Shown here in pieces: positions 5,882 to 18,397 of a DNA stretch of 23,033 bases. The notes below the pieces were generated by a model that saw only the letters and a program-made list of their open reading frames with translations, did not search any database and was not told the DNA's origin. The position numbers and the translations under genes are program-made. Each line of letters opens with the position of its first letter. Positions within the stretch are counted from its first letter, which is position 1. Source of the stretch: a virus; the IMG/VR virus record IMGVR_UViG_3300020428_000092, positions 1 to 23,033 of that record. One strand, written 5' to 3'.

Positions 5882-6097
5882 CTATTCCTTGTCTTTTTTA
5901 ACTTCTGGTTCTTTATAATCTTTTAAACCTTCAACAATTTTACCATTGTAATAGTTAGTCAAAACATCAATTTTTTCCATCTCCATTTCAATTCTTACTC
6001 TATTTTGTTGAACTTCTTGTCTTGCCATAATGTGTCTTTTTACCGGTTCTGGTAACAAATTCTCATCATAGTCTTTTCCATCAATCTTGATACTCAT
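5882..6097 (-). CDS. DUF6447-like small protein, 71 aa
   Basis: The opening MSIKIDGKDYDENLLPEPVK followed by a charged helical region (QEVQQNRVRIEMEMEKIDVL) matches the layout of DUF6447, a short marine phage family that begins with a '-I-D-G-K-x-Y-D-' strand followed by a helix and a heptad-like segment. The acidic/basic C-terminal tail is probably disordered. The start is supported by GGAG five bases before the ATG and by a late promoter 32 bases upstream. Its role is unknown. It opens the transcription unit just downstream of the accessory island. Confidence 0.6.
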   Translation of the reverse strand: MSIKIDGKDYDENLLPEPVKRHIMARQEVQQNRVRIEMEMEKIDVLTNYYNGKIVEGLKDYKEPEVKKDKE

Positions 6098-6128: not shown

Positions 6129-6136
6129 TATTTATA
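6129..6136 (-). promoter_or_regulatory. T4-type late promoter, TATAAATA, overlapping an accessory-gene stop codon
   Basis: A perfect minus-strand octamer that overlaps the TAA stop (6132-6134) of the last gene of the leftward accessory operon. The predicted start is near 6123, with a leader of about 26 bases carrying GGAG before the ATG at 6097. It gives the structural genes downstream their own promoter, so they do not depend on readthrough from the accessory operon. Confidence 0.78.
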
Positions 6137-6698
6137 CTCCTTTTTCAAAGGGTATTTCAAGGTCCTTTGGATAAATTAGTCTTTGACAACCACCATAATA
6201 GTCTTTCTTTGATGGCGTTACCCAATATCTGTCCTCACTTACTGTTAAATTACCACCATAATCTTCATTATAATGTTGAGCCCATAGTTTTAAAAACTTA
6301 TGACCTCTTTGTCTGCTTACAAAGTAGAACTCATAATCATAATTCTCTTTTATAAACTGAATTTGTTGATGTAGAAATATTTGAGCTAAATGATATTCGC
6401 CGTCATACTTCTTTGTACCACCTTTTTCTCTAATATCTTTAGTGTAATAAAATCTATTTAAAACTCTAAACACATTTGGTTTCCAAGTCTCTCTATTATA
6501 GATACTTGATATAACCTTAACCTTATGGTCTTCGACACCTACTGTCAAAGCTAATTGGTCATCTAAATGAAAATTGCCCCAATTCTTCCACAATGGGTCA
6601 GATTGTTGCTTTAAGATATCATCTATTATTTTTTCAAACTGTATTCTGTATTCTGGCGTTAATTGGTCAGGTCTAGCTGTATAACTTTTTAATTTCAT
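6132..6698 (-). CDS. unknown protein, possibly GNAT-like acyltransferase, 188 aa
   Basis: I do not recognise the family with confidence. The middle (ALTVGVEDHKVKVISSIYNR, then VFRVLNRFYYTKDIR) and the later helix-strand stretch (AQIFLHQQIQFIKENYDYEF, YFVSRQRGHKFLKLWAQHYN) resemble the strand order of GNAT-fold proteins encoded by marine phages. No clear acetyl-CoA R-x-x-G-x-G/A loop is visible. The frame stays open to 6788, but that extension lies inside the preceding gene and encodes an unlikely hydrophobic leader, so I chose the ATG at 6698, which overlaps the upstream gene by 26 bases. It is the last gene of the leftward accessory operon; its stop overlaps a late promoter. Confidence 0.55.
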   Translation of the reverse strand: MKLKSYTARPDQLTPEYRIQFEKIIDDILKQQSDPLWKNWGNFHLDDQLALTVGVEDHKVKVISSIYNRETWKPNVFRVLNRFYYTKDIREKGGTKKYDGEYHLAQIFLHQQIQFIKENYDYEFYFVSRQRGHKFLKLWAQHYNEDYGGNLTVSEDRYWVTPSKKDYYGGCQRLIYPKDLEIPFEKGV

Positions 6699-7407
6699 CT
6701 TGTTTGTTCTTCCAAGTTTCGGCCATAACATAAGCAATACTATACTTTTTATCATCAGCCGTACCTGCACCACCAATACCATTGTCATAAGTCATAAAAT
6801 ATTCTGAAGCTTCATAACCTAAATGTTTGACATGATAATCATTCAATGCTTCTCTTTGCAATGCGTAATTAAGTTGTACAGGATTATTTTCTTCATTCAT
6901 CATATCAAACAAAATATTCTTTTTTAAGTGGTCAAGAAATACACCAAATTTTTTACCTCTATGATTTTTAGAAGTCCATTGACAAGAACTATACCAAGAA
7001 TTTTTTAAACCTAATAATTTTTGAGGTTTGACTACATCTGTTCCTCTTCGAACACCCTCTTTCTTGCTAGCGCAAACATCAATAAAATATTCTACTGGCA
7101 TTTGTCTAGCTGCATATGTAGCTATAACTTCGTCATCTTTCTTTAAAAGTAAAACAAAAGATTTCATTTGTCTAATTAAACCAAAAAATTCTCCTTTTGT
7201 TGCTAACTCTTCGTCATCAAAAAAAGTATCCATACCATAAGGGTAGTCATCTTTACTTTGAGACATAAGGTGTTTTTTCAGTCCAACTAAATCGTCTGAA
7301 ATTTCTACATCAATACCGTTATCACTAAAATATTTCATTAGCTCTTTATGTATATTTGTAAATTGTGTTCCATCTAATTGGAACTCTTTGTGATTGTCTA
7401 TAATCAT
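6673..7407 (-). CDS. GNAT-like acyltransferase, 244 aa
   Basis: Several GNAT-fold features appear in the expected order. A hydrophobic strand followed by a turn and a second strand (SFVLLLKKDDEVIATYAARQ, residues 83-102) fits beta2-beta3. A long helix begins after HRGKKFGVFLDHL (residues 149-161), where RGKKFG stands in for the acyl-CoA-binding R-G-x-G-x-G/A loop. LNDYHVKHLGYE (188-199) is the late 'Y..LGF' element that closes the fold. Family members transfer acetyl or other acyl groups from CoA to amines, and the acceptor here is unknown. The ATG overlaps the stop of the preceding gene as ATGA. GNAT membership is moderately sure; activity is not, because the CoA loop is degenerate. Confidence 0.6.
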   Translation of the reverse strand: MIIDNHKEFQLDGTQFTNIHKELMKYFSDNGIDVEISDDLVGLKKHLMSQSKDDYPYGMDTFFDDEELATKGEFFGLIRQMKSFVLLLKKDDEVIATYAARQMPVEYFIDVCASKKEGVRRGTDVVKPQKLLGLKNSWYSSCQWTSKNHRGKKFGVFLDHLKKNILFDMMNEENNPVQLNYALQREALNDYHVKHLGYEASEYFMTYDNGIGGAGTADDKKYSIAYVMAETWKNKQDEIKKLYS

Positions 7408-8174
7408 AATTCTTTTACTACCTTTTTTCTAAACTCTTTTTTAAATAGAGCTTGAAATATAATTTTATATTGTGTCTCTCTATTCATGTTAACGACCCAA
7501 TGTTTCTTTCCTGTGTTTGTCCACATTAAGCAACCCTCATATGAAGGCATAACCTTATTGTTAAAAACTGCCTCACATGAATCTACATGATTTAAACATA
7601 AGTTAAAAACATTACACATATCAAAAGCATGTAATTTTTCACCACCTAATAACGGTATACTGCCGTCTGGTATATCATCATGTTTAGTTACTATTCCACC
7701 TGGTTCTAAAGCAGTTACAAAAATATAACCAACATGTAAATATGGAAATATCGCACTTTCAAAAAACTTCTTTAAAGTAGGACTGAATTCTGCAATGTCT
7801 GTCCACTTTCTTTCATTCTTAATATAATTCCATCTGTCTTTATATTCCCATTCGTCTTTGTAAACAGGTTTAAATTTCAATATTTGGTCTTTACTAAAGC
7901 CTGTCTCATTAAGAAACATGGCCGTTCTCCAACCTCTCGCTTCAATTAACTGACTACCCTCTTCGGTACCAGGTAAAGAACGATTACTTTCATAATCATC
8001 ATAACCCTTTTGATTGTCTTTATTACCACCATCAAAAGGTTTACTCCAATATTTATCAGGTATATTCTTCACATCTTCAAGAATCTCCTGTGTTGGCCAA
8101 CTCCAAAACTTACTTATATCTACCCAATCATTATTTTGAGCAATGTGATAAAACTCTTTATTTTCCGTTCTCAT
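7404..8174 (-). CDS. AspH-type 2-oxoglutarate/Fe(II) oxygenase, 256 aa
   Basis: The C-terminal half has the pattern of aspartyl/asparaginyl beta-hydroxylase-like enzymes: ALEPGGIVTKHDD with HxD at H165/D167, a strand with NLCLNH about 25 residues later, TNTGKKHWVVN with the distal iron ligand H225, and R232 (NRETQYKIIF), placed to bind 2-oxoglutarate. All three iron ligands are present, so the enzyme is probably active. The family uses O2 and 2-oxoglutarate to hydroxylate amino-acid residues or small molecules. It overlaps the neighbouring genes by 17 and 4 bases in the accessory operon. It is one of three 2OG-type proteins in this operon. The first ~100 residues are aromatic and Lys/Asp-rich without a recognised domain. 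Confidence 0.8.
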   Translation of the reverse strand: MRTENKEFYHIAQNNDWVDISKFWSWPTQEILEDVKNIPDKYWSKPFDGGNKDNQKGYDDYESNRSLPGTEEGSQLIEARGWRTAMFLNETGFSKDQILKFKPVYKDEWEYKDRWNYIKNERKWTDIAEFSPTLKKFFESAIFPYLHVGYIFVTALEPGGIVTKHDDIPDGSIPLLGGEKLHAFDMCNVFNLCLNHVDSCEAVFNNKVMPSYEGCLMWTNTGKKHWVVNMNRETQYKIIFQALFKKEFRKKVVKEL

Positions 8175-8964
8175 TTTTCCATTCTAACCATTCATAAAAT
8201 AAGGGCACTTTTGTGTCCTTTTTACTTCGACCCATCCATAGACTCTTTGTTGGTTGTAAGTCTAATTTTGTACAGAATGAGTCTGCCACATGTCTATATT
8301 TATCATAGAAGTAATCAGGCTTAAATCCAGTCAACTGATTTATCATACCAAGACCAACTAAATTGTTATATGATACATCTTTATACATTTCAAAATGTTT
8401 GATTGGTGTTTTAGAGTATAATATGCCTATTCTATGGTATTGTATACCAAACATCTTACTAAAACTAAAAGAAGCATAACTGACATTACTTAAATCATAT
8501 GTACCTTGTAAACCACAATTACCTGCCCACGCAAGGTCTATGAAAGCAGGTCCTTTTAATATAGTTTGTGTAGTAGGGTGTTCTTCTGCCGTATCATAGA
8601 AAGGTAAACTTAAAAATGGTGTTCTATTTCTTAATGTATTTCCACTCTCAGCATATATTCTTGCATGAGCAAGATACGATTTATATTCTTTGTCTGCAAC
8701 AACAGGTCTTAAACCATGTTCAAGCATAGTTACATGTATAGCTTCTGTTATGCCATTTGTAATATACACATAAGGAAAATTTTTAAGTCCTTTTACTTTA
8801 AACTTGCCTTTATTAAACCATTCAGGAAAAGACCTAATAAATGATTTGACCATTTCTTCTTTATTTTGAGTTATATAATCATGGTCATAAACATCATTAA
8901 AATATCTTTTAATGGTATCTGTAACTTCAGGAAATTGAATAGGGTATGTTGCTGTTAAATACAT
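8158..8964 (-). CDS. PLP-dependent fold-type I aminotransferase-like protein, short, 268 aa
   Basis: It has hallmarks of class I/II aminotransferases such as the HisC type: YVYITNGITEAI (residues 65-76, the cofactor phosphate loop), AFIDLAWAG with D143 to pair with the pyridine nitrogen, and ASFSFSKMFGIQYHRIG with K170 as the Schiff-base lysine and R178 near the phosphate. Family members are usually 350-400 residues. This one stops at 268 and appears to lack much of the C-terminal small domain that holds the substrate-carboxylate arginine. It may therefore accept an unusual substrate, work as a heteromer, or catalyse a different PLP reaction. It overlaps the class III aminotransferase gene by 10 bases, which suggests consecutive or joint action. 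Confidence 0.75.
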   Translation of the reverse strand: MYLTATYPIQFPEVTDTIKRYFNDVYDHDYITQNKEEMVKSFIRSFPEWFNKGKFKVKGLKNFPYVYITNGITEAIHVTMLEHGLRPVVADKEYKSYLAHARIYAESGNTLRNRTPFLSLPFYDTAEEHPTTQTILKGPAFIDLAWAGNCGLQGTYDLSNVSYASFSFSKMFGIQYHRIGILYSKTPIKHFEMYKDVSYNNLVGLGMINQLTGFKPDYFYDKYRHVADSFCTKLDLQPTKSLWMGRSKKDTKVPLFYEWLEWKNENGK

Positions 8965-10073
8965 TCTTTAATATTCTCCATAAATTTGTGATAATCTTCT
9001 TGCGTCATTATATAAGGCAAACAATATACAGCTGTTGTCATATTTTCTGAGCCGTCTTCTAATATGTAACCTCTTTCTCTCATCTTCTTTATAAATGTTA
9101 ATGATTGTTTTGGTGTTTCAAAGTCTATTGCACCCATACAACCAATCTGTCTATGTTCTTTTACATTTTCTAATCTAATACTAAATCTATCATGGTTAAG
9201 CAACCATTCGTTTCTTTGTTCTAATTCTTTTAACATTACAAAACCTGCACTAGAACCAACTGGATGACCTGAAAAAGTAAAACCGTGATTAAACATTTTA
9301 TTTTGTTTCTCAATTCTTTCATTTATTAAACAAGCACCCATTGGAAAGTATCCGTTTGTTATTGCTTTGCCTAATACTAATATGTCAGGTTTAAAATTAT
9401 ATTTTTCAAAACCAAACAAAGGTCCTAACTTTCCAAAACCTGTAACTGTTTCATCAAGTATAACATAACCACCAGATTCTTGATATTCTTCTAAAATATC
9501 CCAGCATGAGTGTTCCCATTCATAAACACCACCTGCACCAACAACTGGTTCTATAATTACAAATGATAAATCAAAAAGACCTTTACAGTTAGCATATAAA
9601 TCATCTGCTCTTTCAAACTTGTAAATACTCATAGGGTTTTGAATACCCCAAAACTTATTAATACCTTGGTCTGAAACATTGGCACTTAATATAGTAGAAC
9701 CATGGTAACTATGTTCGCCACATATTGCAACATTTTTACCTGTAAGTTTTATAGCAGTTTCTACGGCAGTCGAACCAGAGTTTGTAAAGTAAACTCTATT
9801 CATATTTGTTTTTTTACATAATGCTTCGGCATATCTTTCTGTAGTCTCACTTTGATTGCCTGAAAAATTACTTGCATAAGGAAGTTTATTAAGTTGATTT
9901 GTCATTGCAGCTTTCATAATGTCATTACTATAACCTAAAGGTGTTGTCCATAATCCTGACATTGTATCTGTTAAAAGCTTGCCATTCTCCAGAGTAAGTG
10001 TATAATCTTTAGCTGAGACCACCCTATCCGTGTGAGAATTAAGTTTAGCAAACGACATTATTTCTTTCGACAT
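8955..10073 (-). CDS. class III PLP-dependent aminotransferase, 372 aa
   Basis: A clear class III (omega-type) aminotransferase. It carries YFTNSGSTAVETAIKL (phosphate loop, residues 95-110), HSYHGST (121-127, ring-stacking region), IIEPVVGAGG (173-182), LDETVTGFG with D207 contacting the cofactor nitrogen, and DILVLGKAITNGYFPMGA with catalytic K236, followed by FSGHPVGSSAG. All key residues are present. The family includes GABA, ornithine, diaminobutyrate, DAPA and glutamate-1-semialdehyde enzymes; I cannot assign the substrate. At 372 residues it is slightly short. Two starts are possible: ATG at 10073, or ATG at 10058, which shares a base with the upstream stop as TAATG; the longer form overlaps the preceding gene by 16 bases. 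Confidence 0.9.
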   Translation of the reverse strand: MSKEIMSFAKLNSHTDRVVSAKDYTLTLENGKLLTDTMSGLWTTPLGYSNDIMKAAMTNQLNKLPYASNFSGNQSETTERYAEALCKKTNMNRVYFTNSGSTAVETAIKLTGKNVAICGEHSYHGSTILSANVSDQGINKFWGIQNPMSIYKFERADDLYANCKGLFDLSFVIIEPVVGAGGVYEWEHSCWDILEEYQESGGYVILDETVTGFGKLGPLFGFEKYNFKPDILVLGKAITNGYFPMGACLINERIEKQNKMFNHGFTFSGHPVGSSAGFVMLKELEQRNEWLLNHDRFSIRLENVKEHRQIGCMGAIDFETPKQSLTFIKKMRERGYILEDGSENMTTAVYCLPYIMTQEDYHKFMENIKECI

Positions 10074-10483
10074 AATAGATACCCCCTATAGTCTGGTGTT
10101 AAATCTGCCATACTTGCAACCTCATAACCTAAACGCCTATTAAAATCTACATGCTTTCTGTTACAACAACTCCAGTTTACAGACCATAAATCTTTTGTGT
10201 ATTCAGGAAGATATCTTCCTAATTTTATACCTGCACCATGTTTAGATGATTCTAAAAAACCATCATACATTTCATTCTCGCAAATAGTATAAAAATATAC
10301 TGCTTCTAATCCACTATGTCCAAAATGTCCTAACCATTGCTCAGGACTAGTATAGAATTTTTTAAGTTGAGGCCAATACTTACTACCAATTAACAAATGT
10401 TTTTTCCACTTATAAAAGTCTTGGTGCCATTCGTCTTGAAAGTTAAATGTAAGGGCTTGAGCAGTAGTAATTTCTTTAATCAA
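10058..10483 (-). CDS. GNAT-like small protein with TTG start, 141 aa
   Basis: Only the C-terminal part shows a recognisable pattern: WSVNWSCCNRKHVDF followed by NRRLGYEVA (residues 100-123) resembles the 'N..A..FY.KLGF' closing element of small phage GNAT proteins. The N-terminal half (GHFGHSGLEAVYFYTICENE) could supply the central strands, but no clear CoA loop is visible, so acyltransferase activity is uncertain. The initiator is TTG: there is no in-frame ATG nearby, AGGA lies six bases upstream of the TTG, and the gene overlaps the preceding stop by 8 bases. It lies between the TauD-like gene and the class III aminotransferase gene. Confidence 0.55.
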   Translation of the reverse strand: MIKEITTAQALTFNFQDEWHQDFYKWKKHLLIGSKYWPQLKKFYTSPEQWLGHFGHSGLEAVYFYTICENEMYDGFLESSKHGAGIKLGRYLPEYTKDLWSVNWSCCNRKHVDFNRRLGYEVASMADLTPDYRGYLLCRKK

Positions 10484-11171
10484 TTGGTATCCTATTCATC
10501 ACTCTTTTATCCATTTTATCAAAAGCCCACCTTTTATGTAAAGTCAACCATTGGTCACTTAATACTAAATCGCCATCCTCCCAATCATGGTGGTACTGGT
10601 ATTTCTCTTGCATACAATGGCTTTGTAACATATCAAATAATTCTTGGTCGCCATTCCAGGCCATTATTTGATAGAATGGAAAGAACATTCCAGTAAGTCC
10701 TGCCTTATTTGTATGTATTAGATTGTGTATTAGTTTCTTATTATGATGTTCTTTAAAAAAAGGGTCTGGTGTATATAATCCTTTCTTAAATCCACATGTA
10801 AAAGTTATATCTTTAATTTGTTCTTTAATATCATCTGACAAGTCTTGATATGCCTTATAGTTGTCAATCCAACTTGTTCTACTTCCTTTTGTTCCTTCTT
10901 TCGCATAAATCCAAACAATACCTGCTCTATCGGGGTCGCTAGGTTTATTAGCATGCCAATCTAGTGTTTCGTCTGTTCCGAATAATGCACCTCTGGTAAC
11001 TCTTTGCATACCAGGAATAATTCTCATTACACTATGTCTATCATCATCTGGTTTAAAAACAGGACCAATATCTTCTGCAATTTTCATTTGGTCTTCTGGA
11101 CTTACATCAAGGCCTAATTTTGTTGCTACTATTCTTTCTTTATATATTACTTCTGCTGAAAATTTTGACAT
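10476..11171 (-). CDS. TauD/TfdA-like 2OG oxygenase homologue with HxN motif, 231 aa
   Basis: The order of elements matches the TauD/TfdA family: TLDWHANKP (69-77) where the first iron ligands should be, IVWIYAKEGTKGSRTSWIDN (85-104, the 'LYA...G.T.W.D' strand), KAYQDLSDDIKEQI (106-119), and DLVLSDQWLTLH with the distal His at 212, followed by R213 and R223. The unusual point is residue 75: the expected Asp/Glu of HxD/E is Asn, giving H73-A-N75. Loss of the carboxylate is known in 2OG halogenases, where Gly or Ala replaces it, and in inactive homologues, so canonical hydroxylase activity is not assured. It overlaps the flanking genes by 25 and 8 bases. Confidence 0.72.
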   Translation of the reverse strand: MSKFSAEVIYKERIVATKLGLDVSPEDQMKIAEDIGPVFKPDDDRHSVMRIIPGMQRVTRGALFGTDETLDWHANKPSDPDRAGIVWIYAKEGTKGSRTSWIDNYKAYQDLSDDIKEQIKDITFTCGFKKGLYTPDPFFKEHHNKKLIHNLIHTNKAGLTGMFFPFYQIMAWNGDQELFDMLQSHCMQEKYQYHHDWEDGDLVLSDQWLTLHKRWAFDKMDKRVMNRIPID

Positions 11172-11758
11172 ACTATCCTCATACTTTCTTCATTACAATT
11201 TATATTCATTACTAACATAGTTGTATCATCATCAAAACCAAATAAACTATGTACTTTGTTTGTGTTAATAAAATAAGCTCTACCCTCATCTAACATTTGT
11301 AAATGATTATCTAACATAAACACATGGTAAGGAAAATTAAAGTTTTTAATAGGCACCAGAATTCTAAAGTTTTTTTGTTCTAAACTTATTTGGTCTCTAT
11401 GTGGTGGAAAGAAACCACCTTTTCTTATGTTTATAAAGTGTGTTCTTTCTAAATGTTTTCCCCAAGGTTCTACTAATTTTTGTGTCTCTTCACTCTTATA
11501 GTAAACATCTGTAAAAGTTTTAAAACTAGATTCTTTATATTGAGTACCGTGTAATTTATTATACTGATAAAATGAATCTAAATCAATACCACCTAGTTTG
11601 CCATCTAAACTTGTAACACTTAATCCGTATCTATTGTTTGGTGTTCTTGGATTGTATTTGTGCCAATCAAAGTCTTTTATTTCCTCTTCTAGTTTTTTAA
11701 TATGACATTTAAACTTCAAAGGTATAATATCACCATATCTTAATAATTTTTCGTACAT
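11147..11758 (-). CDS. AspH-like 2-oxoglutarate/Fe(II) oxygenase, 203 aa
   Basis: It has a full facial triad in an AspH-like arrangement: HFINIRKGGFFPPHRDQ with H120-x-D122, FRILVPI with R132 as probable 2-oxoglutarate contact, and GRAYFINTNKVHSLF with distal H170, followed by a final beta strand (TMLVMNINC). Short phage-encoded members of this family are common in marine myoviruses, but their substrates are unknown. Candidates include Asp/Asn/Pro residues, free amino acids or sugars. The start shares a base with the stop of the upstream gene (TAATG) and is preceded by AGGA. It is the second gene of the leftward accessory operon, and its C-terminal 25 bases overlap the TauD-like gene. Confidence 0.8.
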   Translation of the reverse strand: MYEKLLRYGDIIPLKFKCHIKKLEEEIKDFDWHKYNPRTPNNRYGLSVTSLDGKLGGIDLDSFYQYNKLHGTQYKESSFKTFTDVYYKSEETQKLVEPWGKHLERTHFINIRKGGFFPPHRDQISLEQKNFRILVPIKNFNFPYHVFMLDNHLQMLDEGRAYFINTNKVHSLFGFDDDTTMLVMNINCNEESMRIVCQNFQQK

Positions 11759-12405
11759 TATATTCCTACCACCATAAATCTTTTAAATTTTCCAAGGTCT
11801 AATTCTCCACTCCAATGAATTGTTTTTAGACCACACTTCTCTTCAAATTCTTTTAAGTCTCTATTACAATTTATATGTTCCGTTAACTCGTTATAATTAT
11901 TAGATTGTAAAATAACCAAAGCTCTTTTCTTTCTTTTAGATAACCATTCATCTAATACTTTTTGTTCTATGTGTTCACATGAGGTACAAATAATAATATT
12001 ATAATTATGTGTGTATTCAAAATCACTTATATTAGCAGTTTTGAATTTTACATTTTTATGTAGATGTTGGCCTATCTCTTGACATTTTGGATCCATATCA
12101 AAACTAGTAACTTGAAATTTAGTTTCCTCTTGTATCTTTGAAGCAAGTAAACCATACCAACCAGCAGCCACCAAAATATTTGGTACTTCATATGCACTAA
12201 AGAAATTGCTGGCATTTTCAATTAACCAGTCTTTACTTTTCTGTTGATTATCGTTATATGAGTTTGCAATAGATTTAACAATCTCATCTTCGCTAGATTT
12301 ACCTAGAGCCTGTAATAGGTCATTATTATTATAATATGCCTTACTCAATTTTTTAACAAAATCATCATTAGTAAATTCACTAATCACTTTAAATATATTC
12401 ATCAT
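11758..12405 (-). CDS. SAM-dependent methyltransferase-like protein, 215 aa
   Basis: A Rossmann-type methyltransferase pattern is readable: PNILVAAGWYGLLASKI (residues 75-91) in the place of motif I, with AAGWYG replacing the usual GxGxG; SFDMDPKCQEIG (101-112) as the acidic ribose-binding strand; YNIIICTSCEHIEQKVLDEWL as the catalytic-loop strand; and C-terminal strands ending RFMVVGI. The first ~70 residues are helical and may bind the acceptor. The acceptor is unknown. The start is ATGATG, with a perfect late promoter whose expected +1 lies only about 3 bases upstream and no Shine-Dalgarno in that leader, so the transcript may be nearly leaderless. It is the first gene of the leftward operon. 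Confidence 0.65.
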   Translation of the reverse strand: MMNIFKVISEFTNDDFVKKLSKAYYNNNDLLQALGKSSEDEIVKSIANSYNDNQQKSKDWLIENASNFFSAYEVPNILVAAGWYGLLASKIQEETKFQVTSFDMDPKCQEIGQHLHKNVKFKTANISDFEYTHNYNIIICTSCEHIEQKVLDEWLSKRKKRALVILQSNNYNELTEHINCNRDLKEFEEKCGLKTIHWSGELDLGKFKRFMVVGI

Positions 12406-12413
12406 AACAATAC

Positions 12414-12421
12414 TATTTATA
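12414..12421 (-). promoter_or_regulatory. T4-type late promoter driving the leftward accessory operon
   Basis: A perfect TATAAATA on the minus strand, with its last base nine bases upstream of the ATG at 12405. The usual late-promoter geometry puts the transcript start near 12408. The three structural-gene promoters leave 16-26 base leaders with ribosome sites, so this short leader is distinctive. It implies that the nine leftward accessory genes are expressed with the virion genes late in infection. Confidence 0.72.
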
Positions 12422-12445
12422 CCTCTCCTAGGAGCTGCCTAAATA
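12414..12445. promoter_or_regulatory. imperfect inverted repeat joining two divergent operons, with probable weak rightward late promoter
   Basis: The 32 bases are centred on the perfect 10-bp palindrome CTCCTAGGAG (12425-12434). The outer arms are TATAAATA on the minus strand and CCTAAATA on the plus strand (12438-12445), at exactly mirrored positions. Reading outward from 12425 (plus) and 12434 (minus), 17 of 21 positions agree. CCTAAATA matches the late octamer at 6 of 8 bases, so it may be a weaker rightward promoter with +1 near 12451, three bases before the ATG at 12454. The palindrome could be an operator or simply the remnant of an inverted duplication. Confidence 0.5.
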
Positions 12446-12453
12446 TGGATTAG

Positions 12454-13587
12454 ATGATGAAAGATAATGGAACTTATTGCCCTTTGATATTCAACGAAAT
12501 CTATGCCGACAGCTCTGGCGAATATAGATTATGTTGTCATGCTAGAACTACACCAGTTTCTAGGAAATACAAATCGCAAACACACAAACCTTTTGAATAC
12601 TTTAACTCACCAGAAATGGAAGAGAAAAGGAACGCTGTGCTTTGTGGAGAAAAGTTGCCAGAATGTATAAAATGTTATACAATGGAAGAATCTACTGGTA
12701 CATCATACAGGACAAAAGCATTAAAAAGATTAAAAAACAAAATGCCACCATTAAGTGTAGATAAAGTTACACTCAAATTAAGAATTAATGGTACCTTTTG
12801 TAATTTAAGTTGTTATATGTGTATACCTTACAACTCTTCTACAAGAAGAAATGAAATGAATAAAATATATCCAGAAGGCTGGGACTTCTTTTCTGAAAGT
12901 GATTATGTATCAGTAAAAAGTAAAGAATGGTATTTGATTGTAAATGACATAATTGATAACATTGAAAGAGTTGACACTATTCATATTACAGGTGGCGAAC
13001 CTTTACAGTTACCTAAACATTGGGAAATGTTAGACTTAATACCAGAAGAACATGCCAAAAATATAGAGTTGCAATATGACACGAATTTTACAGAGCTTAG
13101 ATATAAAAACCATTCAGTATGGGATATAGAAAACAAGTTTAAAAAAATACATTGGGGTATATCATGTGACCATTATGGTAAAAAATTAGAATATATCAGA
13201 TATCCTATTGACATTAAAAAATTTGAAGCTAATTTACGAGAGACTAAAGACTTTCAAACAAGAAATCTAAATTGTACAACCTCATTATTAAATGTGGAAG
13301 ACTTGACATCAATTAAAGATTACTACAAACAAAACTTTAATATAGAAGTAAAATTTACTAGTGTTGTTATGACACCAAAAATATTATCAATAAGAAATCT
13401 ACCAGAGGAGAAAAAACAACAACTTATTAATAGATACGAACATATACCAGAGTTTGCTTATGTATTAAGTGAATTGAAAAAAGGAGGAAACTCTACAGAC
13501 TTAAAAGCAGGTATAGAGTATATGAAAAAACTTTCTAAACAAAGAAATATGAACCACGCTGAACTATGGCCACAATATGATAACTAG
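12454..13587 (+). CDS. radical SAM protein with N-terminal twitch/SPASM-like cysteine domain, 377 aa
   Basis: The radical SAM signature CX3CX2C is present as TFCNLSCYMC (C116, C120, C123), with the SAM-binding GGEP at 180-183 after strand DTIHIT. Before it, residues 1-80 hold C9, C27, C28, C64, C71 and C74 in a pattern (CPLIFNEIYADSSGEYRLCC ... CIKCY) that normally occurs as a C-terminal SPASM or twitch domain binding auxiliary Fe-S clusters. Here it precedes the core. Relatives often modify peptides, though sugar and cofactor substrates are also known. Start: ATGATG at 12454; GGA seven bases before the second ATG may favour 12457. It is the first gene of the rightward operon and overlaps the next by 11 bases. 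Confidence 0.85.
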   Translation: MMKDNGTYCPLIFNEIYADSSGEYRLCCHARTTPVSRKYKSQTHKPFEYFNSPEMEEKRNAVLCGEKLPECIKCYTMEESTGTSYRTKALKRLKNKMPPLSVDKVTLKLRINGTFCNLSCYMCIPYNSSTRRNEMNKIYPEGWDFFSESDYVSVKSKEWYLIVNDIIDNIERVDTIHITGGEPLQLPKHWEMLDLIPEEHAKNIELQYDTNFTELRYKNHSVWDIENKFKKIHWGISCDHYGKKLEYIRYPIDIKKFEANLRETKDFQTRNLNCTTSLLNVEDLTSIKDYYKQNFNIEVKFTSVVMTPKILSIRNLPEEKKQQLINRYEHIPEFAYVLSELKKGGNSTDLKAGIEYMKKLSKQRNMNHAELWPQYDN

Positions 13588-14194
13588 ACGAAAATGTATT
13601 AATTTAGATATAACTTATAGATGTACTTTACAATGTTCAAAGTGTAATAGAGAAATCTTTAGACAAAGAGGACAAAAAGTACCAGGCCATGATATGTCTA
13701 TGGAAGAGTTTAAAAAGATATATGATTATTTTGATGAAATAACTTTTTGTGGTCAAGTATCAGACCCTATCTTTAATCCAAATTTTATTGACATGTTAAA
13801 AATGTGCCATGATAGAAAAGTTAATATACATACGGCGGCTTCGCATAAACCTTGGGACTGGTATATGAAAGCCTTTGACGCCTGTAAACACGCAAGGTGG
13901 GAGTTTGGTCTTGATGGCGTACCAGAAGAAAGCCACAAATATAGAGTAAATCAAGATGGTTCTAAAATATGGGATTTAATGTGTGCTGGTAGAGAAAAAG
14001 GTCTTAAAATAGTTTGGCAATATCTTGTCTTTGATTATAATGAAAATGACATAGACGCTTGTAGGCAAATGGCAGAATTTAAAGAGATAATGTTTAAGAC
14101 AACTTTATCATCTAGGTTTAGTATTGAACAATCATTAAAACCTAAAAATTCTGATTTAAGATTAGATACTCATAAACATAAGGCGGGACAATGA
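13577..14194 (+). CDS. radical SAM core protein, 205 aa
   Basis: INLDITYRCTLQCSKCNRE carries the CX3CX2C cluster (C16, C20, C23) right at the N-terminus. TFCGQVSDPIFNPNF (56-70) takes the place of the GGEP motif, in the 'G..GDP..NP' form seen in MoaA- and SPASM-type radical SAM enzymes. Later segments (FGLDGVPEESHKYR, KIVWQYLVFDYNENDID) fit the remaining barrel strands. It ends at 205 residues, without an auxiliary cluster domain; the next gene, overlapping by ATGA, supplies a matching cysteine-rich domain, so the two may work as one split enzyme. The substrate is unknown. The start overlaps the previous gene by 11 bases. Confidence 0.85.
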   Translation: MITRRKCINLDITYRCTLQCSKCNREIFRQRGQKVPGHDMSMEEFKKIYDYFDEITFCGQVSDPIFNPNFIDMLKMCHDRKVNIHTAASHKPWDWYMKAFDACKHARWEFGLDGVPEESHKYRVNQDGSKIWDLMCAGREKGLKIVWQYLVFDYNENDIDACRQMAEFKEIMFKTTLSSRFSIEQSLKPKNSDLRLDTHKHKAGQ

Positions 14195-14553
14195 ACAAAT
14201 TAAAACCTCAATGTTTATATAAACACGATAAACAAGACCATTCAAAAACATATGGTCATAGTGCTAAAGGTTTTATTTTACCTTGTTGTTGGTGTGATAC
14301 AGTTAATCCAGAAACCGACACTCAATTAATGAAGTTAATGAAAGAAGAATTGTTGTTAGAAAACAATAACTCAATAGAAGATATTATAGACTCTCCAGAA
14401 TGGAATGAGTTTTATACAAATATTACGACACCAGAAAACTATGATAAGGTGCCAAAAGTATGTAAAAGATATTGTACAGTTAATGATGATGGTACACAAA
14501 AATTATGGAAAAAAGAATTTAAATATGGAGCAGACGGAAAGTTAGTTAAATGA
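14191..14553 (+). CDS. stand-alone SPASM-like cysteine-rich protein, 120 aa
   Basis: Six cysteines are arranged as in the auxiliary Fe-S domain of radical SAM-SPASM enzymes: C8 (KPQCLYK), C32-C33-x-C35 (FILPCCWCD) and C91/C95 (VCKRYC), with the SPASM-type phrase SIEDIIDSPEWNEFY between them (compare 'iwns.e...r' in typical SPASM domains). It has no core CX3CX2C of its own. Its ATG overlaps the stop of the radical SAM gene at 13577-14194 (ATGA), so it is probably the detached C-terminal half of that enzyme, acting in trans. A fused ancestor split by a frameshift is possible; the clean ATGA junction and separate start favour a stable two-gene form. Confidence 0.7.
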   Translation: MNKLKPQCLYKHDKQDHSKTYGHSAKGFILPCCWCDTVNPETDTQLMKLMKEELLLENNNSIEDIIDSPEWNEFYTNITTPENYDKVPKVCKRYCTVNDDGTQKLWKKEFKYGADGKLVK

Positions 14554-15326
14554 TAAAAATATTTACAGTATATTTTGAAGGCAAATATAAACCAGAGTAT
14601 GTATCTAAACTCTATAGAGGACTAAAAGCAAATTGTAAAGTACCTTTTGAATTTATTTGTTTGTCTGATACAAAAGAAGTTGAAGCTGATAGAGTTATTA
14701 TGTTGCCAAAATGGTCTAATATAAAACTGCATTGGCATAAACTAAAATTCTTTAGCCCTTTATTTGGAGACCAAAAACCTGGTGATGATATCATAGTATT
14801 AGATATTGACCAAATTATAGTTAATGATGTTACAGAAATGATTAACTATCCTGTAGGAGAAAACGAAATAGTTACTTACAGAAAATGGTGGAAGAAAGGC
14901 GACCCCAATTCAGGCAATACAGTTAGATTAAATGGTGGTTGGTACAAATTTAAATCAGGTTCTTTAAAATTTGTTTGGGAGAAATTTACCAAATCATCAA
15001 AGAGTATTGACAAGTGGTGTTTACACTATTTTAAGAATGGTACAGTACACTATAAATATTATGGAGAACAAAACTTTGTTGAAGATACTTGCCTAGAGAA
15101 TGGTGTAAAAATAACTCACATGCCTGGCGAATGGATTGTTAAAGTCAATAGTGAAAAAGATAGAAACCACTATCATCAATTAAAGTATATGAAAGAGTTT
15201 GGTAAAGAATATATGATACTTGATAAACCACATGATGATATTAAAATAGTACATTTTGCTGGTGCTGAAAAATTAGATACAATACATGATTGTGATTTTG
15301 ATTGGATAAAGGATTATTGGAAATGA
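14550..15326 (+). CDS. DxD glycosyltransferase (GT-A, GT8-like), 258 aa
   Basis: The N-terminal MIKIFTVYFEGKY and the strand PFEFICLSDT suit a GT-A nucleotide-sugar fold. HWHKLKFFSPL leads to DDIIVLDIDQIIVND, with DxD at 85-87 for the metal and sugar nucleotide. The late motif KIVHFAG (about 232-238) is the 'H-F-x-G' metal-binding element of GT8-like enzymes. It has no transmembrane segment or signal peptide, so it acts in the cytoplasm. The donor and acceptor cannot be assigned. It overlaps both neighbours by 4 bases (ATGA), in the middle of the rightward operon. A second, smaller DxD protein ends the same operon. Confidence 0.78.
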   Translation: MIKIFTVYFEGKYKPEYVSKLYRGLKANCKVPFEFICLSDTKEVEADRVIMLPKWSNIKLHWHKLKFFSPLFGDQKPGDDIIVLDIDQIIVNDVTEMINYPVGENEIVTYRKWWKKGDPNSGNTVRLNGGWYKFKSGSLKFVWEKFTKSSKSIDKWCLHYFKNGTVHYKYYGEQNFVEDTCLENGVKITHMPGEWIVKVNSEKDRNHYHQLKYMKEFGKEYMILDKPHDDIKIVHFAGAEKLDTIHDCDFDWIKDYWK

Positions 15327-15979
15327 TACCTGAACAAATCTTCATAGATAAAGATGTTAACAAAATAGCTATTAGTAATTCTGGTGGTTTAGATTCTTCT
15401 TTAATGACTTATCTATTATGTAAATATATAACTGATAATAATTTAAATGTCGAAGTTTATCCTATGCACGGTATTGACAATACAAGACCAACATCTCCAG
15501 AAAATGTACAAAACATTATTAATTTTTTAAGAGAACAATTTCCTAAAGTAAAAATACACGATATGCTTACATGGGATAATACTAAAGATTGGATTGTTCC
15601 TAAAACTAAAAAAGACTCAGCAGGTTTAACTAAACATTGTGTAGAAAATAATATAACTCATATCTATGGTGGAAGAACTGCAAATCCACCACCAGATGTT
15701 ATGCACCAAATTGGAATGAAAGCTATGCAATCTGAAAGAATACACAATAACGACAAAGATATTTCTGAAAGAATTAGAGGTGGTTATTTAATAAGACCTT
15801 GGGTTAATGTAGATAAAAAGTTTATCTATGACTTATATGTAAAGTTTAATTTATTAGAAACATTAGCACCTTTAACATGGAGTTGTATTGGTTTTGCTGA
15901 CGCTACAAACTTCTTTTCCAAACCTTGTGGTAAATGTGAATGGTGTAAAGAGAAAAAATGGGCATTTGGTTATGATTGA
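15323..15979 (+). CDS. QueC-like PP-loop ATPase, first paralogue, 218 aa
   Basis: KIAISNSGGLDSSLMTYLL holds the PP-loop SGGxDS (residues 20-25), which binds ATP in N-type ATP pyrophosphatases. Near the end, TWSCIGFA (C188) and PCGKCEWCKEKKWAFG (C202, C205, C208) form a four-cysteine set like the zinc site of QueC, which makes 7-cyano-7-deazaguanine from a carboxylate through an amide. The sequence between differs from standard QueC, so the substrate may be another carboxylic acid; PAPS-reductase-like or tRNA-modifying relatives share the PP-loop. The ATG at 15323 overlaps the glycosyltransferase stop by ATGA; an upstream in-frame start at 15302 is inside that gene and less likely. Confidence 0.75.
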   Translation: MIPEQIFIDKDVNKIAISNSGGLDSSLMTYLLCKYITDNNLNVEVYPMHGIDNTRPTSPENVQNIINFLREQFPKVKIHDMLTWDNTKDWIVPKTKKDSAGLTKHCVENNITHIYGGRTANPPPDVMHQIGMKAMQSERIHNNDKDISERIRGGYLIRPWVNVDKKFIYDLYVKFNLLETLAPLTWSCIGFADATNFFSKPCGKCEWCKEKKWAFGYD

Positions 15980-16676
15980 TGTAGAAGACTATAGAATAAA
16001 AAAAGCAGAAATGGTATTCATGTCGTTATCAGGTGGTGCTGATTCGGCAATTCTATTCTATCATGCCTGTGATGTTATGCCTGATAAAACATTTTTAGTT
16101 TGGTCAGGTTCAGATATTGGTAGACCTAATTTAAAAGAGGCCAAGGCAGTATATAATTTTGTTAAAGAAAAATATCCAAAAGTAAATATATTACCTCATC
16201 ATACATTTGAGTATAGTGTTAGAAAATATCCACAAACTATAGACCAAACAAAAACTGAATGGGATCCTAAAAAAGACCCTAAATCAATCTTTCATAGACA
16301 AGAAGAATTAAAATTAAAAATTGTTCACGAACCAGATTTATGTTTAAACGGTATGACTTCACATCCACCAGAAGAAGCAATTAAAGAATTTAAATTAGAT
16401 GTTGATGAAGGCCATGGAATATTAGAAAAAAGAAGACAAAAAACAAGAAGTCCTTGGGGGCAAAATATGACACCTAGTGGTAAACATGTTCACTACTATA
16501 GTCCTTTTATGCAAAAAGATAAAAGTCATGTTAAAGATATGTATGTTAAGTATGGTGTTTTAGATACATTATTTCCTTTAACTGCCAGTTGTATTGGTTG
16601 GCCAGATAAAGTAACACTACCTTGTAAAGTATGTGTTTGGTGTAAAGAGAGACTTTGGGCATTTGGAACTTATTAG
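15972..16676 (+). CDS. QueC-like PP-loop ATPase, second paralogue, 234 aa
   Basis: VFMSLSGGADSAILFYHA carries SGGxDS at 20-25. The C-terminal cysteines are C207 (ASCIGW) and C218/C221/C224 (PCKVCVWCKERLWAFG). It matches the preceding gene at both ends (SGG.DS and SCIG...PC..C.WCKE..WAFG) and in size, so the pair came from a tandem duplication, but the central parts are very different. This suggests two related but distinct ATP-driven steps, or a heterodimer. Start at 15972: the frame stays open further upstream inside the neighbouring gene, but the ATG overlapping its stop by 8 bases fits the operon. The next gene begins immediately after the stop. Confidence 0.75.
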   Translation: MIDVEDYRIKKAEMVFMSLSGGADSAILFYHACDVMPDKTFLVWSGSDIGRPNLKEAKAVYNFVKEKYPKVNILPHHTFEYSVRKYPQTIDQTKTEWDPKKDPKSIFHRQEELKLKIVHEPDLCLNGMTSHPPEEAIKEFKLDVDEGHGILEKRRQKTRSPWGQNMTPSGKHVHYYSPFMQKDKSHVKDMYVKYGVLDTLFPLTASCIGWPDKVTLPCKVCVWCKERLWAFGTY

Positions 16677-17060
16677 ATGAAAATATTAATTTACGGACAT
16701 AGTGGTTCCGGTAAAACCACATTAGCAAAACAACTTGCTGAACATTATAAGATACCAAACTTTAATGGTGATGATGTAAGAAAAATGTTTAATGATTGGC
16801 ACTTTGAAATAAACGGCAGAAAAATACAAGCAATGAGAATGAGAACTTTATCTAATATGGTTGAAGATTGTATTGTTGATTTTATTTGTCCTTTAAATCA
16901 CTATAGAAAATATTATGATTACACCATCTTTATGAACACCATAGAAAAATCAAAATATGAAAATACAAACTTAATATTCGAATCAGGTGAACCTAACCTA
17001 GAAATTAAAAATTGGAAATATAATATAAAGGAAATAATTGATGAGATTAATTTGTTGTAA
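16677..17060 (+). CDS. adenylylsulfate-kinase-like P-loop kinase, short, 127 aa
   Basis: ILIYGHSGSGKTTLAKQL carries a Walker A loop (G7-T14). FNGDDVRKMFND (29-40) corresponds to the 'DGDNxRxxLN' region of APS kinase, with R35 present, and NMVEDCIVDFICPLNHYR (60-77) to its 'A..I.SP...R' segment. APS kinases are about 180-200 residues; this protein has lost most of the lid and C-terminal part, so its substrate may differ: a nucleotide, a sugar or another hydroxyl group. Phage P-loop kinases of this general type are known in DNA base modification and RNA repair. Its start directly follows the preceding stop, and its end overlaps the last gene by 20 bases. Confidence 0.7.
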   Translation: MKILIYGHSGSGKTTLAKQLAEHYKIPNFNGDDVRKMFNDWHFEINGRKIQAMRMRTLSNMVEDCIVDFICPLNHYRKYYDYTIFMNTIEKSKYENTNLIFESGEPNLEIKNWKYNIKEIIDEINLL

Positions 17061-17616
17061 TACAGGCGAAAGATTTGGTCAATGGTATGTTGACAATCTA
17101 AAACATATGATAGATACATACTCTGGTTTAAAGTATGATAGTTTTGAAGTTATTACGGAAGAACTGTACGAGGGCGTTTTTAATAAACTTCAAATGTTTG
17201 ATAAGTTTAGAGACGGAGAAAACCTATACTTTGATTTAGACATTGTTATAAAGAATAAAGTACCTGATTTAATTAGAAAAGATGTAACTGTATTGAATGC
17301 CTGGTGGAGAGAACAAGAACATACACCATTAAACTCTTCTATTATATCTTGGACAGGAGACCAATCATACATCTATAAAAAGTTTATGGAAAATCCTGAC
17401 TATTATCAAGTTAAGTATAATAGAGGTATAGACCAATTTTTACATGAGAACTTTGATATTAAAACTTATCCAGATTCAACTTACTATTCTATAAAAGGTC
17501 GTGAGTATGATGAAGAAGATACAAACTACAGTATTTGTATTTTTAATCAAAGAAAAATATTAATGGAAGATGGATGGTCAGGTTGGTGGAAAAAATACTT
17601 TATTGAGAATTTTTAA
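17041..17616 (+). CDS. small DxD glycosyltransferase-like protein, 191 aa
   Basis: LICCNTGERFGQWYVDNLKH begins a GT-A-like fold, and GENLYFDLDIVIKN carries DxD at 65-67, the same position relative to the strand as in the larger glycosyltransferase of this operon (VLDIDQIIV). FNKLQMFDKF before it parallels 'HKLKFFSPL' there, so the two are probably related. Several tryptophans in the second half (NAWWREQ, GWSGWWKKYF) could form the acceptor site. I chose the ATG at 17041, with AAGGA eight bases upstream, over the in-frame TTG at 17038. It overlaps the kinase gene by 20 bases and, tail to tail, the minus-strand gene at 17600-18073 by 17 bases. Confidence 0.65.
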   Translation: MRLICCNTGERFGQWYVDNLKHMIDTYSGLKYDSFEVITEELYEGVFNKLQMFDKFRDGENLYFDLDIVIKNKVPDLIRKDVTVLNAWWREQEHTPLNSSIISWTGDQSYIYKKFMENPDYYQVKYNRGIDQFLHENFDIKTYPDSTYYSIKGREYDEEDTNYSICIFNQRKILMEDGWSGWWKKYFIENF

Positions 17617-18073
17617 TTTTATAAACTATACTTAATGCCTCAAATGGTGTTTTAGCTAATCTTAATTGTTTTTTCAATTCAGTATCTTTAGATTGTTTGA
17701 TAAAATCTTGTTCAAAACAATACAACTTTAAATTAAATAACTTTTCTAAATTATCTTCGTCAAACTCCACAAAGAACTCATACATTTCTTTAAAGTATTC
17801 TTTACTCAAATCACTAATAACTTTTTGTGCTAACTCTTCTTCTTTAGCAGCTCTCATTATACCTTGATTAAAGGCTTTCTTTTGTTCTTTTAAATATCTT
17901 TTTGTGTTTGAGTGTATAGTTTCTATATCAACTACTTTAGATAAATCTTGATAAACAGGATGTTCGGGATTAAAATGAATTGCTTGTACACCTTCTTTTG
18001 TGGTTACCTCTATTAATGTTCTATTGGCATCCAAAAAGTGTGCGTTGATATAATTGTCTTTCGTAATCTGCAT
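17600..18073 (-). CDS. unknown phage protein, paralogue of the next gene, 157 aa
   Basis: I do not recognise a named family. The N-terminal ~60 residues (MQITKDNYINAHFLD..., EV, EGVQAI, F, then the IHSNT region) align with the protein at 18095-18397, so the two arose by duplication. The rest is helical and charged (KKAFNQGIMRAAKEEELAQK, then ELKKQLRLAKTPFEALSI) and extends beyond the paralogue. It has no catalytic motif or membrane segment. Its 3' end overlaps the last gene of the rightward accessory operon by 17 bases tail to tail, and no terminator is visible between them, so antisense transcription across this boundary is likely. Confidence 0.55.
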   Translation of the reverse strand: MQITKDNYINAHFLDANRTLIEVTTKEGVQAIHFNPEHPVYQDLSKVVDIETIHSNTKRYLKEQKKAFNQGIMRAAKEEELAQKVISDLSKEYFKEMYEFFVEFDEDNLEKLFNLKLYCFEQDFIKQSKDTELKKQLRLAKTPFEALSIVYKIKNSQ

Positions 18074-18094
18074 AATATAAACCTTTATAATGTA

Positions 18095-18397
18095 TTACTT
18101 GTCTAAATTCTTTTTTACTTCTTCGCCTTTTTTTGTAAGAACTAATCCTTCTCTTTCAGCAATTTCAATAACATTTCTTTCAAATGATTTTCTTTGTGCT
18201 TTATGAAAAGAGTATGTATTTGCTTTTAAATCTTCTGTAGTAACAATAGTTAACAGTTGTTTACCTACATCACTTTCCCAATCAGCTGGCATAATAAAAG
18301 GAATAATTTGTTTTCCTTCTCTTAAAAGAACTTCAACTTGCGAATGTTCTCCATCTAGGTAATGAGCAGATACATAATTGTTTTTTGTAATATTCAT
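18095..18397 (-). CDS. unknown phage protein, short paralogue, 100 aa
   Basis: No family is recognised. The opening MNITKNNYVSAHYLD, the later EVLLREG and the IVTTEDLKANTYSFHKAQRK stretch match the protein at 17600-18073 in order and spacing, followed by a charged helix (RNVIEIAEREGLVLTKKGEE). The shared N-terminal unit therefore spans about 75 residues, and the two proteins differ in their C-terminal tails. It lies 16 bases after the virion protein gene at 18414-19337 and is probably expressed with it. AAAGGA about 11 bases before the ATG may be the ribosome site. Confidence 0.55.
   Translation of the reverse strand: MNITKNNYVSAHYLDGEHSQVEVLLREGKQIIPFIMPADWESDVGKQLLTIVTTEDLKANTYSFHKAQRKSFERNVIEIAEREGLVLTKKGEEVKKNLDK

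Follow-up and report, generated by a model that had tools for sequence, protein, structure and literature searches.

A mosaic enzyme island of a putative pelagimyophage carries an all-or-none six-gene cassette that ends at a late promoter motif

Pelagimyophages infect SAR11, the most abundant bacteria of the surface ocean, and the hypervariable region of their genomes has previously been ascribed to host recognition and to lipopolysaccharide (LPS) change, with no functional unit named. In the main text of the work that describes it, this host recognition cluster (HRC) is a big non-syntenic island of fibres, glycosyltransferases and gained radical S-adenosylmethionine (SAM) cassettes (Zaragoza-Solas et al. 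2020, PMC7029224). Here, we analyzed an island on a window of 23,033 nt (the whole stretch studied, positions 1 to 23,033 of IMG/VR virus record IMGVR_UViG_3300020428_000092). Like the described HRC, it lies between VrlC and the neck genes and has fibres mixed with glycosyltransferases. The island packs 17 open reading frames (ORFs) tightly into two divergent operons. The minus strand carries g01-g09 (6132-12405), the plus strand g10-g17 (12454-17616). We found that six of these genes, g06 to g01, form a cassette that viral loci carry either entire or not at all, that this cassette has been gained and lost repeatedly, and that its fibre-side breakpoint coincides with a late promoter motif, TATAAATA.

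VrlC at the right edge of the window is 64% identical to VrlC of Pelagibacter phage Mosig EXVC030M, which stood at the top of the 1,541 phage records that matched. Judging from this protein, the window is that of a T4-like pelagimyophage, and its nearest cultured relatives suggest a host of the SAR11 type. A 44.5 kb IMG/VR contig (L011) spans the entire window at 99.96% DNA identity and therefore represents the same virus population, not independent support. On this contig the remaining fibre genes lead up to a head-tail adaptor of the neck (Ad2, phrog_211, E 2e-41), so that the position of the island, from VrlC to the neck genes, is that of the HRC, as is its hypervariable content of fibres and glycosyltransferases. 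Most of the island proteins are conserved in diverged phages at 25-78% identity, which argues that the ORFs are genes and not chance ORFs. The first-pass annotation of this DNA, which had proposed a tailoring island of 17 genes in two divergent operons set among fibre genes, is borne out on these points.

To survey the island in other viruses, we ran eight IMG/VR scans with g05, g08, g10, g11 and g15, as single sequences and as alignments, and obtained 103 viral loci that fall into 68 non-redundant groups, the window's own population included. These collections are fragmentary and come from metagenomes. Querying the viral contigs with one protein at a time yielded almost nothing, and alignments of two or three sequences were required. 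Of four diagnostic genes (g02, g03, g05 and g06), 10 groups carry the full set and 53 carry none; another five have part of the set, and in each of these a contig end falls inside or adjoining g05. Since island genes served as the retrieval bait, the share of cassette carriers does not estimate their natural frequency. Close homologues of g04 and g01 accompany the diagnostic genes, while distant relatives of both were found elsewhere too, implying that these two families extend beyond the cassette. The genes run g06-g05-g04-g03 and then g02 and g01, which may swap places (10483-6132 in the window). Gene overlaps are also kept, with 10 nt between g05 and g04 in 10 of 13 loci and 17 nt between g04 and g03 in 9 of 13, and there is room for an extra gene between g02 and g01 in L014, L018 and L020 and between g01 and g02 in L023 and L024. 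Hence, g06-g01 alone are inherited together and behave as an indivisible unit. No relative of g03 turned up in the 84,980 genomes of bacteria and archaea covered by a pattern-based scan, of a kind that can miss distant relatives, and the cellular relatives of g05 found by pattern are generic, about 30% identical, unlinked and without the other cassette genes. We rejected a cellular origin of the cassette on these two results.

The phylogeny of the neighboring fibre proteins does not follow the cassette. On a tree of s09-s06 (35 rows), the presence of the cassette needs 8 changes compared with a mean of 8.8 when labels are shuffled, a count that is approximate since the tree is a quick one with some long branches. 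The starred branches alone force at least seven gains or losses, and the placement does not differ from random. We compared seven phage pairs that differ in the island and have fibre blocks about 77-93% identical in DNA, and in each the similarity breaks off no more than ~30 nt from the last cassette gene's stop codon. Between L022 and L150, where s08 precedes s09, partial similarity returns upstream of the cassette. The breakpoint falls at TATAAATA, which in the window contains the g01 stop codon (6134-6132). Of 34 distinct junctions, 32 carry this motif exactly, mostly 26-43 nt ahead of the s09 start; the two without it come from loci in which s08 precedes s09 and in which the inspected stretch does not correspond in position. 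Chance would yield about 2 in 46 shuffled sequences; the shuffles preserve base composition and not the relatedness of the junctions, which weakens the case for the motif to that extent. A second copy lies upstream of g09. The late promoter that had been proposed for the island at first reading is thus a real motif, kept in L006 and L028 as well. Over the entire window the enrichment of TATAAATA is not significant (6 versus 4.3), leaving only its placement and conservation to carry weight. In the cyanophage literature TATAAAT is taken as the query for T4 late promoters (PMC3037559). Both the left operon of the island and the fibre operon carry the late-gene motif and may be transcribed from it.

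In contrast to the cassette, the remainder of the island is modular. The sets g10-g11-g12, g14-g15, g13 and g17 recur in differing combinations, and sister islands instead carry a carbamoyltransferase, a DegT aminotransferase, a GDP-mannose-dehydratase-like epimerase or a sulfotransferase. In L021 and L024 the other operon is filled by sugar enzymes (DegT, GDP-mannose-dehydratase-like epimerase and carbamoyltransferase). Two genes, g07 and g16, are absent from the syntenic relatives L006 and L028; the left operon of L006 is syntenic, yet a different gene sits between g09 and g08. Glycosyltransferase-like g13 occurs in 28 of the 68 groups and g17 in 34. We also observed three consecutive pairs of g11-like radical SAM and g12-like SPASM genes in L030 (20.5 kb), which suggests duplication of the pair. 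The proposal that all 17 genes make up one pathway fails here, as g07-g17 assort independently and mix with other modules. The opposite outcome, scattered genes with no conserved pairing, was looked for in the relatives and not found, since gene groupings are conserved. The island is a mosaic and not a fixed single pathway.

The genes and landmarks are collected in Table 1. Our family assignments are most secure for g05, g07 (as TauD-type) and g10, and the individual functions are predicted at the level of the family. Within the cassette, g05 has D207 and K236 invariant in 10 sequences, and g04 has invariant D143, S-x-SK170 and R178. For g03, the motif and a weak profile match support a 2-oxoglutarate (2OG)-Fe(II) oxygenase, with the metal triad H165-x-D167 and H225 kept in an alignment of 11. 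The predicted models of g01 and g02 have the GNAT superfamily fold, as confirmed by Foldseek and VIA (Z about 12), and g01 is conserved across 11 relatives. The acetyl-coenzyme A pyrophosphate loop, [RQ]xxGxG/A, is degenerate in g02 (RGKKFG in the window). Searches of the PDB with profiles of g02, g03, g06, g08, g10, g13 and g17 gave no credible match.

Outside the cassette, g08 has H120-x-D122 and H170 invariant, consistent with the HxD...H triad of 2OG oxygenases. In g07, H-x-N replaces the expected H-x-D in 14 of 14 phage sequences, and alignment to CarC places the Asn at the position of the metal-binding Asp. The protein therefore lacks the HxD/E...H triad of 2OG-Fe(II) oxygenases and may be catalytically unusual or inactive; it would be either a non-oxygenase or an enzyme with an altered metal site. 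Most of the enzyme classes named in the first-pass annotation hold by profile, fold or motif. Among them, the 2OG-type call needs a correction at the triad of g07, and g06 stays only GNAT-like. For N_Twi_rSAM, no strict match came from 289 genomes of a single class; as the control genomes gave none either, this says nothing about its cellular context. The kinase g16 is ~40% identical to phage kinases without an assigned role. We rejected it as a DNA-modification kinase because its best phage relatives adjoin NADAR, methyltransferase or phosphatase genes and no recognizable hypermodification set.

Table 1. Coordinates of the island genes, promoter motifs and flanking landmarks in the window.
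Feature	Position	Strand	Basis or remark
s09	5882..6097	-	First gene of the conserved fibre-side flank; adjoins the island in most relatives
TATAAATA, late promoter motif of the fibre operon	6136-6129	-	Fibre-side cassette breakpoint
g01, GNAT-fold acyltransferase-like	6132..6698	-	Last cassette gene; likelier start 6698, ORF start 6788 probably too early; AlphaFold predicted local distance difference test (pLDDT) 88.5, GNAT matches Z up to 12.3
g02, GNAT-fold acyltransferase-like	6673..7407	-	AlphaFold pLDDT 88.8, GNAT matches Z up to 12.7; alignment n=12
g03, putative 2OG-Fe(II) oxygenase, Asp/Arg-hydroxylase-like	7404..8174	-	PF05118 E 0.035
g04, short fold-type-I pyridoxal phosphate (PLP) enzyme, HisC-like	8158..8964	-	PDB profile match E 2.4e-3
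g05, class-III aminotransferase	8955..10073	-	PF00202 E 8.3e-50
g06, 141-aa GNAT-like	10058..10483	-	First cassette gene; conserved in 10 relatives
g07, TauD/CarC-type protein	10476..11171	-	PF02668 E 8e-27; best PDB match CarC
g08, Asp/Arg-hydroxylase-like 2OG oxygenase	11147..11758	-	PF05118 (Asp_Arg_Hydrox) in 7/18 relatives, best 7.6e-7
g09, methyltransferase-like	11758..12405	-	First gene of left operon; Methyltransf_31 in 5/16 relatives, best 2.6e-5
TATAAATA, T4-type late promoter motif upstream of g09	12421-12414	-	Exact motif in three lineages, with L006 and L028
g10, N-terminal-twitch radical SAM	12454..13587	+	NCBIfam NF033640, E 1.5e-76, 258 bits against a cut-off of 170
g11, radical SAM without its own SPASM domain	13577..14194	+	PF04055 E 8.4e-7
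g12, stand-alone SPASM-like, partner of g11	14191..14553	+	Assigned from cysteine motifs in its sequence; adjoins g11 in relatives
g13, glycosyltransferase-like with DxD	14550..15326	+	Glycosyltransferase PHROG phrog_1962, E 5.8e-15; D85-I-D87 invariant in 13
g14, QueC-like PP-loop	15323..15979	+	Likelier start 15323; SGGLDSS; C188/C202/C205/C208; weak QueC/TilS matches
g15, QueC-like PP-loop, partner of g14	15972..16676	+	Likelier start 15972; SGGADSA; QueC-type cysteines; phrog_1550 E 3.6e-8
g16, small P-loop kinase	16677..17060	+	phrog_10255 E 2.2e-20; APS_kinase 25.6 bits against a cut-off of 21.1
g17, glycosyltransferase-like	17041..17616	+	VrlC-side island end; likelier start 17041; L-Y-F-D-L-D invariant in 12; support is the invariant DxD, with no curated family match
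s10, small conserved protein	17600..18073	-	VrlC-side flank; same place in Mosig and other relatives
VrlC, C-terminal part	20387..22948	-	Landmark opening the HRC

At the VrlC-side edge of the slot, s10 and s11 (17600-18397) are small paralogues with ~34-36% identity, and s10 is kept in many relatives. Beyond the window, the contig of the same population carries near its neck genes a bilin-reductase-like gene (phrog_7278, E 1e-19) after a probable heme oxygenase-like gene (L011:13166-14417). This pair resembles the bilin cassettes of cyanophages, with the heme oxygenase assigned by eye only. Next to the neck genes there is also a further group of three (L011:10861-13173), of which one is a 2OG oxygenase (phrog_81, E 2e-33), another is probably a membrane protein (phrog_14035) and the third has no assignment.

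We give about an even chance to the reading that the island serves as a tailoring module, expressed late and open to exchange, whose target for decoration is a glycan or protein borne by the fibres or by the host surface. Decoration of a virion protein or glycan, as suggested in the first-pass annotation, stays the leading candidate. The fibre operon would be read from a TATAAATA late promoter late in infection, and so would the left operon, which begins with g09. The slot would hold exchangeable enzyme modules, among them the six translationally coupled genes g06-g05-g04-g03-g02-g01. If the cassette is one pathway, it most likely makes or installs one unusual amino or acyl-amino substituent, where g05 and g04 would aminate, g03 would hydroxylate and the GNAT proteins would acylate. 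From the other operon would come variable steps (radical SAM, PP-loop and glycosyltransferase) by which the group is assembled on, or joined to, a glycan or protein, either of the phage fibres or of the surface of the infected cell. New versions may arise by phage recombination at the late promoter embedded at the cassette end, by which the entire chemistry would be swapped with the fibre genes undisturbed. The late promoter motifs and the site at the fibre operon point to the virion or the host surface at the time of assembly.

Several observations weigh against this proposal. L016 and L189 share 93% fibre DNA identity, one with and one without the cassette, meaning that the fibre proteins do not require it and that fibre decoration, if any, is optional. 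The acetyl-coenzyme A loop is not recognizable in g01 in an alignment of relatives, which renders its acyltransferase activity uncertain. In the stretches compared, HTVC008M and Melnitz have no island gene. In addition, a host-surface change made late would come late for superinfection exclusion. A bolder form of the proposal, which we consider rather unlikely, is that the slot is dedicated to altering the chemistry of the receptor-binding apparatus, with cassettes exchanged at the late promoter as the recombination point to give a new fibre group on the same fibre proteins, and that the cassette is a virus-only pathway without a cellular counterpart.

Ranking close behind the leading reading, if unlikely in its own right, is the published reading of the region, by which the island would remodel the LPS O-chain of the host for serotype conversion or receptor masking. 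The authors of PMC7029224 read, in its main text, the glycosyltransferases of the HRC as changing host LPS. The glycosyltransferase-like genes g13 and g17 are common in the slot, sister islands carry DegT, epimerase and carbamoyltransferase genes, and the independence of the adjoining fibre proteins from the cassette also fits. Against it, profile searches found no dehydratase, epimerase, DegT or nucleotidyltransferase among the island genes of the window, the aminotransferase is of class III and not DegT, and g09 is preceded by a late promoter motif.

We regard as slightly less probable still that the direct substrates of the enzymes are ribosomal peptides or a virion protein, and not a glycan, with chemistry resembling that of ribosomally synthesized and post-translationally modified peptides (radical SAM/SPASM, QueC-like PP-loop, Asp/Arg hydroxylases and GNATs). 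The g10-g12 genes unite radical SAM with SPASM or twitch parts, weak NCBIfam matches of g11 include peptide maturases, g05 matches a daptide aminotransferase model with a score under the cut-off, and Asp/Arg-hydroxylase-like 2OG enzymes are present. However, the island has no precursor-peptide gene and hardly any intergenic room for one, the divergent gap being 48 bp, although a peptide encoded elsewhere is possible. Moreover, no model scored above an equivalog cut-off, and N_Twi_rSAM, which passed, is a subfamily model.

Small-molecule pathways often include class-III aminotransferases, GNATs and 2OG oxygenases, and the island could make a diffusible small molecule or cofactor late in infection to serve its metabolism, an option also allowed in the first-pass annotation. 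We find this improbable, given the recurrence of glycosyltransferase-like genes in the slot, its location and exchange beside the fibre operon, and the lack of a transporter or ligase in the island. Known thymidine hypermodification sets resemble the island's enzyme classes. Even so, DNA hypermodification (pyrimidine decoration, or 7-deazaguanine, by the P-loop kinase, PLP, radical SAM, PP-loop and GNAT proteins), a target that the first-pass annotation had allowed and to which the QueC-like g14 and g15 and the role-less relatives of g16 might point, is very improbable, since no thymidylate-synthase (ThyA)-family protein occurs in 10 relatives and no TGT/DpdA or QueD in nine (genomes of 139-177 kb included, that of the window's phage being incomplete), the island has a late promoter motif, and restriction systems are rare in SAR11 according to the main text of PMC7029224; with these key enzymes not found in relatives, we rejected deazaguanine and hydroxymethyl-pyrimidine modification.

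Among described systems, the island of Mosig EXVC030M (MT647606) occupies the same slot with the same divergent layout. It has homologues of g04, g07, g08, g09, g11, g12, g13 and g17 (26-55% identity); g05, g03, g02, g06 and the PP-loop pair find no match in it. Its other genes include a carbamoyltransferase, a DegT-type aminotransferase, nitroreductases and additional radical SAM genes, which are MoaA-like. The g14 and g15 proteins keep the SGGxDS motif and four C-terminal cysteines of QueC, the 7-cyano-7-deazaguanine synthase. Unlike QueC, they score far under the cut-off of the curated model (17-21 bits versus 150), and no QueD/TGT partner was found in relatives. Arbiol et al. 2010 (Genome Biol Evol 2:140) are reported to have described promoter-borne recombination in T4-type phages, with regulatory sequences as points of module exchange; here, the late promoter motif lies at the end of the last enzyme gene, and the phages are marine. 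The T4-like Campylobacter phages CP220 and CPt10 have many radical SAM genes, with weak similarity to g11, and a central module that is swapped whole; as far as the text of PMC2853527 that bears on them goes, it reports no class-III aminotransferase/2OG/GNAT cassette and does not describe a location relative to fibres or a boundary promoter. For the HRC itself, the main text of PMC7029224 calls the divergence gradual, does not mention an aminotransferase or oxygenase by word search, and did not yield a six-gene cassette, all-or-none inheritance or a late-promoter breakpoint. What would be new relative to the known HRC is thus a mosaic with an all-or-none six-gene cassette and a breakpoint at a late promoter motif. 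A defined cassette with clean presence or absence, sister phages with shared fibre genes and a precise exchange point together offer a testable system, and suggest that a viral late promoter can serve as a boundary for the exchange of enzyme modules.

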